Below are positions 33,401 through 36,400 of a DNA stretch of 64,000 bases, piece by piece; position 1 is the stretch's first letter; each line of letters starts with the position of its first letter. The translations under genes and the position numbers were made by a program. Source of the DNA: Phorcus lineatus (taxonomy: Eukaryota; Mollusca; Gastropoda; Trochida; Trochidae); the NCBI GenBank assembly GCA_921293015.1, contig OV121087.1:34579235-34643234 (forward strand). Direction: 5' to 3'. Below the pieces are notes generated by a model. It was given only the letters and a program-made list of their open reading frames with translations, searched no databases and was not told where the DNA came from.

Positions 33401-36400
33401 CACTTTATTTCTTTTTGAGTGGGGTACAGCTTTTTCTTGACATCAATGTAAACTATGAAACATTTGAGGTAAACAAAATAAAACATATCTATTCATTTCA
33501 AATAAACAAGTTGTGGCAAGACGACCAAAATGAGACAAACTTATCGTATTGGCATTGTGTGTAGACATTTGCTTTGTGTAGTTGATAATTATAATTTAAT
33601 TTTGGTTTTAAGCCTGCTAGAGTCGGTAGAATGCTTGCTCGTTTTCTAGCATATATGTATTCCTTAGTTAGGATAAAAAGGAAGTTTAGAACATCATTTC
33701 TTCTTTCACTGAATCCAAAAAGAATGTTTCATTTTAGTAGATCTTGCCACAACGTTTTTACATATTTACATTCATAAAAAAGATGGATAATTGATTCTGC
33801 TTCAACATTGCAGAATGTACACTTTTTTTAACCCCAGAATTTTCATTACTAATGAACTTACCAATGGCTCAGCAAGAGATGAACTTACCAATGGCTCAGC
33901 AAGAGATGAACTTACCAATGGCTCAGCAAGAGATGAACTTACCAATGGCTCAGCAAGAGATGAACTTACCAATGACTCAGCGAGAGATGAACTTACCAAT
34001 GGCTCAGCGAGAGATGAACTTACCAATGGCTCAGCAAGAGATGAACTTACCAATGGCTCAGCAAGAGATGAACTTACCAATGGCTCAGCAAGAGATGAAC
34101 TTACCAATGGCTCAGCAAGAGATGAACTTACCAATGGCTCAGCAAGAGATGAACTTACCAATGGCTCAGCAAGAATCTGTTCAATCTTTTTCTCAGCATG
34201 ACGACAGAACTCCAAAATGAGGCCGCGGAGGATGTACTCTCCAGGCTTTCCTTCTTCCCCATTGGTGGAACCTGACGGTCGCCATGGAAACTTCAGCAGG
34301 TGATCTGACTCTGCAGGTGGTCGTGCCCCATCTGTTAATGATCATTAAAGTGCTTACCATTTCTTTTTACAAAATGAAAAAATTTGTCATGATCAAAAAC
34401 CTTGTGGATACAAAAAACCCTGTTCAATGGAGAAATCATGCTTATCAGATGAAACATGACCTGCTTGTAATTATACATCAAGTTTTACATTTGGCTAACC
34501 TTAAGAATTTTTTAAACAAAAAGGTGAAAAATATGTGGAAAAGCTAGCACTGTGTACATGAATATATGAAGATAAAGCATGAAGTAATATATAGATCATG
34601 TTGTTGGAGTTCCATGTGTCATATATTCTACATTGTTTAAGTATATCGAGCAGTACTAACTATCGATGAAATCACCACGCTTATCAGATAATCATATAAT
34701 TTTTTAGACAAAAGGTAAGAAATATGTGGAAAAGCTAGCACTGTGTATGTGAATATATGAAGATAAAGCATGAAGTAATATATAGATCATGTTGTTGGAG
34801 TTACAAGTGTCATATATTCTACATTGTTTAAGTATATCGAGCAGTACTAACTATCGATGAAATCACAAAGCCCATCAGATAACCATAGTGATTAAAAATA
34901 GAGATATAGGCTCTGTAGTTAATTAGGATACCTATAATCTATTTCATAAAAGGTCACAGGGTCACCATATGAGCCGCTACAGGATCACCAAATCTATATA
35001 TCGATCATGAGGTGAGTGAGATGAGTTGCTGTTTAACGCCACTTTCAAGATTATTTCACTTATATCGCAGCTGCTAGTATTATTGCAGGGAGAAAGCCCA
35101 CAACACCATTGTGGCTATGCATTGTGGTGAAACCCGTGAGCATCGGCTGGAACTAGCGAACCATGGGTGGTACTGCGCTGAAATTCAGTGTAGCATTGCA
35201 CCCAAACCTGACTGCCTGTAGAACAGTTCTCTACTGCAGACAAAGTTGCCGAGCCCCTTGCGGGATTCGAACCACGGACGTCTTGATCTGAAACTGAATG
35301 CGCTAACCACTGCGCTATCCCGCCCCCCTGTATACAGGACTTCAGCTTTTAGGGCGTGGTCGCTATGGCTTTTATTAGGACAGACGACACGTAATGCAAT
35401 AATGTCATCGGGCCTTTCAGGCCATATGAGCTAAAAACAAGCAGTCATTTTTTTTTATACAGAAACCATGTATGTACTTTGACTGATGTGTTCCAGTTGG
35501 TCAAAGTAACTTTCGGAACTTATTCATTGTAGTAGTGTGTTGGAAGTGTCCTAAAAATCACCAAGCAGTATACATGCTTTTTCATATGTAATGTATATGA
35601 CAGTTGCTTAGGTTTCATTGATAATCAGCTTGACCGTGAATCAGCACATAAGGCATGCATAAGAGTCAAATTTCTATAAAATAAATATGTCCTTTTTAGC
35701 TTCAGAAGCTAAGGTATTCATGTTTTCCAGGGTTTTTTTTTAAATTAAAAGTTTTCAAAATTCAATTTTGTTCATCGTTGACTTGAATGGGAAATGAAAT
35801 GTAACCATGGAAATTCAATAATATGTCTAAATGATTGATGGTGTGACAACTTGGATGTTTCAATTAAATCATATGATATATGTAGCAAAACTACAACAAG
35901 AAAATCAATCTGAATATTGTGACCTTCCATTAATTCATTTATATCTTATTATGCATCAATATTCCCAAACCTGCTAGGTGAACTAATGCCTTGGATACAA
36001 TGCAAATTTCCACAAAATGTATTCATAGCATGAATGACATCCACTTACAACTACATGTTTTATTTATCCGGTGTCAGGTGGCAGAGTAAACGACAACCAG
36101 ATAGTATTGGTTTGAAAATACATTAACAAAGGAACAAGAGAACCACAAAGATGACAAATCACCTCCCCTCTTTACAAAATCCATAGAACACACCTTAAAC
36201 AAGAAAAAAGTGAGCATGGCTCACATACCCCTGCAGCACGTCTGGTTTCTTCTCCCTCTAGTCTGAATTAATATGATTCTGGATAACCTGATTTACTAAA
36301 AGTGACTGTAATAGTTTAAGAGTAAATGTGTCCCAATTGGAGCAACAGATCTGTTAATCGTTACACGTCCAATTGCGCAATCAAGGGCCACAAGTCTGTC

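Follow-up and report, generated by a model that had tools for sequence, protein, structure and literature searches.

The Furry locus and its tandem donors

The analysed window, 64,000 nucleotides of the gastropod Phorcus lineatus (assembly GCA_921293015.1, contig OV121087.1, positions 34,579,235 to 34,643,234), carries part of a Furry gene (FRY/Mor2/Tao3) on its minus strand. The joined downstream exons match PF14222, the Cell morphogenesis N-terminal domain of Furry/Mor2, with an E value of 7.2e-67, and this match lies on the same strand as, and in order with, the two coding exons discussed here (Table 1). On their own, these two exons have neither a Pfam family match nor a PDB relative; their order, their strand, and a Furry-like motif make their placement in Furry probable. 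They are called exons 2 and 3 here as labels taken from the original prediction. The intron between them measures 1203 nt from the first donor and 906 nt from the twelfth.

Table 1. Positions of the Furry features in the window and of comparable donor arrays elsewhere in the genome (a slash marks the splice boundary)
Feature	Position	Strand	Remarks
Furry coding exon (exon 2)	34159..34331	-	173 nt with donor 1; acceptor TTAACAG; open frame; ends AEPL
Next Furry exon (exon 3)	32902..32955	-	54 nt; acceptor TTTCAG; phase 0; starts ERPL
27-bp x 12 minisatellite	33852..34174	-	TRF
Donor 1	34153..34158	-	Exon-proximal, ancestral exon end; TTG/GTAAGT; U1 duplex -9.1 kcal/mol
Donors 2 to 12	33856..34131	-	First bases 34131, 34104, 34077, 34050, 34023, 33996, 33969, 33942, 33915, 33888, 33861
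LINE-like 3' end	33382..33821	-	5'-truncated, poly-A; sense with gene; starts 40 bp past donor 12
PPCDC (L065 and L100)	G000:C1:20069900-20072550		PF02441, E 9.8e-15; PDB, 2.9e-19
GCLC (L041)	G000:C1:5481000-5485500		PF03074, E 1.6e-13
Alg9-like mannosyltransferase (L050)			PF03901, E 7.2e-12; first added step AGG TAA
Alpha-mannosidase, Ams1-type (L054)	G000:C9:54796500-54800900		PF22907, E 7.7e-9
Otoferlin (L070 and L101)	G000:C5:3201500-3203270		E 7.3e-34; C2-domain exon end

At the end of exon 2, 12 identical TTG/GTAAGT donors follow one another in 27-base steps from 34158 to 33861, all of them intact. The array that carries them has a period of 27, 12.0 copies, 98% matches, and a TRF score of 625, which is far above chance. 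It is made up of several head-to-tail units within the 10-100 bp or so of a minisatellite, and its donors are close, canonical, at least two in number, and served by one acceptor (32955) in a compatible frame, as in tandem 5' splice sites. Translated in the frame that exon 2 uses, the array gives AEPL(VSSSLAEPL) and is stop-free, while the remaining two frames have a stop in each unit. Every one of donors 2 to 12 adds the nine residues VSSSLAEPL, one unit carrying AESL instead. The 12 GTAAGT donors in 27-bp units that had been predicted are thus borne out by the TRF array and the minus-strand donor positions, and translation and the phase-0 junction with exon 3 likewise uphold the claim that the units are stop-free and each donor in frame.

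The make-up of the unit had been given as 12 exon and 15 intron bases, which needs correction. Set against the exon end and the sequence that follows the final copy, the unit proves to combine 17 bases from the end of the exon with 10 from the start of the intron. The 17 exon-derived bases are the exon end TTCTTGCTGAGCCATTG apart from a single T-to-C change, which is common to the later units, and the intron past the final copy (GTAAGTTCATTAGTA) has no more than its first 10 bases, GTAAGTTCAT, in common with the unit. Among the units there are three base differences: two units carry a synonymous CTT-to-CTC change and one a CCA-to-TCA change, the latter being the P-to-S change that gives AESL. 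All three lie outside the donors, and their number is too small for a test of selection.

The donors are of ordinary strength, as other donors of the gene, chosen by eye, form U1 duplexes of -5.5 to -12.5 kcal/mol. RNA folding of 33840-34190 was no better than that of shuffled sequence (z 0.10; 52 of 100 shuffles as good), and the idea that the donors are hidden by RNA structure was rejected for this reason. The array and its exon were found at a single place in a genome search that skipped simple repeats for the array, and such a search of the one assembly did not find a second allele. A Furry retrocopy that would reveal the used junction was not found in the genome, both matches being the window's own exons, and no solved structure was found for this part of Furry.

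Beyond the array lies the end of an element that we take to be a LINE from a zinc-knuckle-like motif seen by eye. It has about 40 genomic matches among the matches listed, and a candidate target duplication, AAAAAAAGTG, was read by eye. Insertion of this element as the cause of the array was rejected, since its 5' boundary at 33821 sits 40 bp beyond the last donor, and its nearness to the array is incidental. The window also contains two-copy tandem duplications at 34506-34887 (191 bp) and 30525-30796 (140 bp). Two other minisatellites with a period of 15-100 bp and at least three copies occur in the window; a 30-bp x 8 minisatellite at 50565-50804 is 99% matching, with at least three of its six frames open. 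On the minus strand, ORF pieces at 63559-63849 and 57988-58194 resemble a polypeptide GalNAc-transferase and its lectin domain, and would mark a probable same-strand neighbour gene.

Donor arrays at other exon ends of the genome

The assembly comprises 958 Mb in 74 contigs, the largest seen being 79 Mb. Its mitochondrial COX1 is read with TGA as Trp, and gene order is what might be expected of a mollusc. Minisatellites are abundant, with about 17 non-target arrays in 152 kb of sequence mostly picked near arrays. Pattern counts across the genome are given as matches and not as arrays, and a few large arrays dominate them. Triples of GTAAGT gave 2738+2694 = 5432 matches against 4955+4883 = 9838 for the reversed pattern, as raw figures with single-site counts not factored in, and enrichment of GTAAGT-triple arrays as such is not evident. 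The single site MAGGTRAGT had 33,435 matches against 38,350 reversed, while its triples had 315 against 180. Triples of RAGGTRAGT numbered 492 against 214 reversed, one dispersed satellite making up much of the matches listed, and those of YTGGTRAGT 233 against 285. A mutational hot spot or purging at donors, considered as an explanation, is unsupported by these comparisons with the reversed patterns. A dispersed 38-bp satellite family, with a unit beginning GAGGTGAGTGACAGTCGAGTCACTGACG, was also observed, for example at G000:C1:1940276, C2:40290605, and C5:1789116.

Donor-like arrays were taken from 38 loci, in 36 of which the first unit is visible; the sequences of L077 and L078 start inside the array and were left unscored. 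When a codon score of 9 bits or more was taken as the mark of a coding exon end, 12 of 37 array loci (the 36 and Furry) passed, against 3 of 20 single sites; this threshold was chosen after the scores were seen, and the array anchors were placed by hand. PPCDC, which is established by homology, scores just 7.1. One of the single sites, L091 (G000:C1:609758-610086), resembles the end of a coding exon and has CAGGTGAGT twice, at 610058 and 610091, a distance of 33 bp; it may be a donor array with just two copies so far. Because of the post hoc threshold, the hand-placed anchors, the low score of PPCDC, and the paired donors of L091, neither excess nor depletion of array loci at coding exon ends is claimed.

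Homology supports donor-spanning minisatellites at the exon ends of five further genes, namely PPCDC, GCLC, alpha-mannosidase, an Alg9-like transferase, and otoferlin, and in all of these except otoferlin an added unit brings a stop or a frameshift. The PPCDC exon, found in one genomic copy, ends in 27 donors at a 34-bp step, and the next in-frame codons read V S V stop. Its next exon, TCIIRAWD, lies about 115 nt past the last donor. When the two are joined at donor 1, the resulting 100 residues align gap-free across the junction with three solved homologues, which are two plant HAL3 entries and 1qzu, an entry named hypothetical protein MDS018 that we take to be human PPCDC. The GCLC exon end has 24 repeats at a 38-bp step, 22 of them with an intact AAG/GTGAG[CT], and an in-frame stop in the unit. 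The repeats lie inside a 1.4-kb intron, and the next exon (VDDN) was located 1387 nt past donor 1 and 513 nt past the final donor. In alpha-mannosidase the first step is 41 bp, so that donor 2 frameshifts, and later donors lie past a stop. The otoferlin exon end, in contrast to these four, is repeated in frame (DDFLGEFTLLDHLSS) and provides a second translatable donor array like that of Furry.

Nine more loci (L042, L044, L051, L052, L060, L066, L068, L072, and L079) are supported by an acceptor-bounded open frame alone, with coding scores of 2.1 (L072), 4.5 (L042), and up to 31.5 (L052), and some of these may be wrong. L044 holds 46 copies. The original prediction knew of no described array as deep as that of Furry, but this depth is exceeded within the same genome by the 27 donors of PPCDC and the 46 copies of L044; a depth of 12 is neither unique nor the record in its own genome. 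Together with Furry, the five homology-supported and nine open-frame arrays make up a tally of 15, from which L046, L056, and L074 were left out as unclear. Three of the 15 exon-end arrays are in frame and open (Furry, otoferlin, and L051). By a rough neutral estimate 0.09-0.13 would be expected, and with 0.12 the chance of at least 3 of 15 is 0.27, so there is no clear sign of selection for coding arrays.

The units of the alpha-mannosidase array have drifted. The exon there is followed by 11 GTRAGT in a row, nine of them after CAG, and then by GTGAGA, with unit spacing of 31-43 nt. Donor positions are kept at 70 of 71, whereas 107 of 415 non-donor positions (26%) are off consensus. In a neutral simulation conditioned on the discovery route, none of 2019 detected arrays kept 11 of 11 donors, the maximum being 9. 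This pattern points to apparent selection on the surplus donors. When nine exon-end arrays are pooled, alpha-mannosidase included, 30 of 1079 donor positions are changed against 318 of 5271 others, but alpha-mannosidase alone carries this effect, and taken singly none of the other eight shows significant donor-specific conservation. Five arrays not at exon ends, when pooled, showed no donor conservation (66 of 780 changed against 359 of 4173). Alpha-mannosidase is therefore a single-case lead and not a rule, while being the best evidence here that surplus donors can be useful.

Which donor is used

We consider it probable that the Furry array began as a minisatellite spanning a donor, in a genome rich in repeats, and that donor 1 is mainly used. 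A 27-bp segment straddling the exon's 5' splice site by chance would have been tandemly duplicated, and the duplicated segment would then have expanded to 12 near-identical copies; we infer simple duplication as the origin, and the length of the array may vary between alleles. The spliceosome would mostly take the exon-proximal donor 1 to give the usual Furry protein, with AEPL joined to ERPL, and the remaining 11 donors would lie within the intron. Leakage to later donors would produce proteins with 9n extra residues and an unbroken frame, and such leakage would be translatable because the unit is 27 bp long and open in the exon's frame. Minor isoforms from the extra units are possible on the sequence. 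Vertebrate Furry presumably reads AEPLEKPL at this junction with no insert, and donor 1 would on that account give the conserved junction.

The dominance of donor 1 is suggested mainly by PPCDC, GCLC, the Alg9-like gene, and alpha-mannosidase, as only donor 1 gives an intact protein in each. If these four genes function, as we assume, each must make sufficient use of its exon-proximal donor, and first-donor choice appears to be a habit of this organism. Furry is unusual beside them because the use of donors 2 to 12 would be translatable. Two points count against the dominance of donor 1. A study of human splicing (PMC6002489) reports that, of two comparable donors, the intron-proximal one is favoured, which would predict use of donor 12 and a 99-residue insert; donor 1 use in the four genes is contrary to this preference. 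The intact later donors of the diverged alpha-mannosidase array are also a hint that later donors can matter.

The same study quotes from earlier work a U1 footprint of 35 nt, sites 33 nt apart being thought just able to be bound together (PMC6002489). As 27 nt is less than this footprint, neighbouring Furry donors are probably not bound by U1 simultaneously, unlike those of arrays with a wider step. Mutual exclusion of this kind could make the choice stochastic, and it is conceivable, if rather unlikely, that several of the 12 donors are used to give a ladder of Furry proteins in nine-residue steps, possibly regulated or dependent on allele length. Such a switch would be consistent with donors that are identical, in frame, and intact, in units whose only changes are one P-to-S and two synonymous. 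It sits poorly with the other arrays, which have no clear bias to in-frame open units and at several of which heavy use of later donors would ruin conserved enzymes. Alternatively, the intron-proximal donor at 33861 may dominate, so that Furry would normally carry the 99-residue insert after AEPL. The human preference argues for this, but in PPCDC, GCLC, and the Alg9-like gene that preference would cut the protein short, and we regard dominance of this donor as very unlikely. An AlphaFold2 model of exon 2 with 11 units, made with no alignment, has a mean pLDDT of 55; at this low confidence it is uninformative and neither helps nor excludes the insert.

Selection could also act on the array as a platform for U1 binding, in exon recognition or in protection of a long transcript, whichever donor is cut. 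The alpha-mannosidase array, in which 308 of 415 positions elsewhere in the units are kept alongside nearly all donor positions, and its simulation argue for such a role. The eight other exon-end arrays do not bear it out, and the Furry copies are too similar to tell, which makes a platform highly improbable as the account of Furry. Finally, tandem arrays are prone to mis-assembly, and the animal might have fewer Furry units than the assembly. The variant units inside the array, the contiguity of the assembly, and the presence of similar arrays with other units elsewhere in the genome all speak against an artefact, which we judge extremely improbable.

Donor 1 as the mainly used site may also be set in a broader frame. 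Tandem donor arrays could form a general class in this genome, occurring (by extrapolation from the matches listed) perhaps at dozens of exon ends or more, with up to tens of repeats, and the spliceosome would dependably settle on a single position among many identical ones. Furry, otoferlin, and L051 would yield a protein length series, and older arrays such as that of alpha-mannosidase would keep surplus donors by selection because bound U1 is useful. We think it unlikely that this whole proposal holds.

Relation to known systems and meaning

Tandem alternative 5' splice sites of the GYNNGY, TassDB/TASS class resemble the Furry array in that adjacent donors differ by a small length. Two reports (PMC4267661 and PMC2279118) treat tandem donors for the most part as noise of the splicing process and describe in-frame tandem sites as selected against. 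The sites in TassDB2 are 2-12 nt apart, whereas Furry has 12 identical full donors at 27 nt made by a minisatellite. Internal tandem repeats of human segmental duplications at exon-intron boundaries (PMC2812944) share with Furry that boundary repeats alter gene structure, but the outcome reported there is a new intron or a lengthened amino acid repeat in a paralogue, and the passages concerned contain no donor array. Intron gain by tandem duplication, according to PMC4974935, also involves duplication across an intron-exon boundary that copies splicing signals. There, one duplication makes a new intron, while in Furry the donor end is multiplied; the Furry unit contains a donor and an AG in GCTGAG/CC, in what is, judged from the sequence, a poor acceptor context. 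VNTRs can likewise alter splicing, as with the 38-bp repeats of TERT intron 6, whose number affects splicing. According to PMC3948165, these are over 1 kb away from the exon junctions and act through RNA pairing, whereas the Furry repeats are themselves donors.

Among the open-access records listed for prior descriptions, none showed an exon end carrying many identical full donors in a row. Tandem donors separated by a few bases, repeats across exon-intron boundaries, and VNTRs that alter splicing are all known; what appears to be new is a deep array of full donors at an exon end, repeated across one genome.

Work on the choice between adjacent 5' splice sites of equal strength has mostly used pairs. 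The natural arrays at coding exon ends of this genome offer from about 4 to 46 near-identical donors at spacings (27 to 45 nt) that fall below as well as above the quoted U1 footprint. Such arrays are natural experiments in which position preference would be readable directly from RNA-seq, and Furry is a clean test case because leakage would be translatable and the spacing is below the footprint. Multiplication of a donor can persist at the exon ends of conserved genes, and this constrains which donor must win. In this light the Furry array is a natural experiment and not a new machine.
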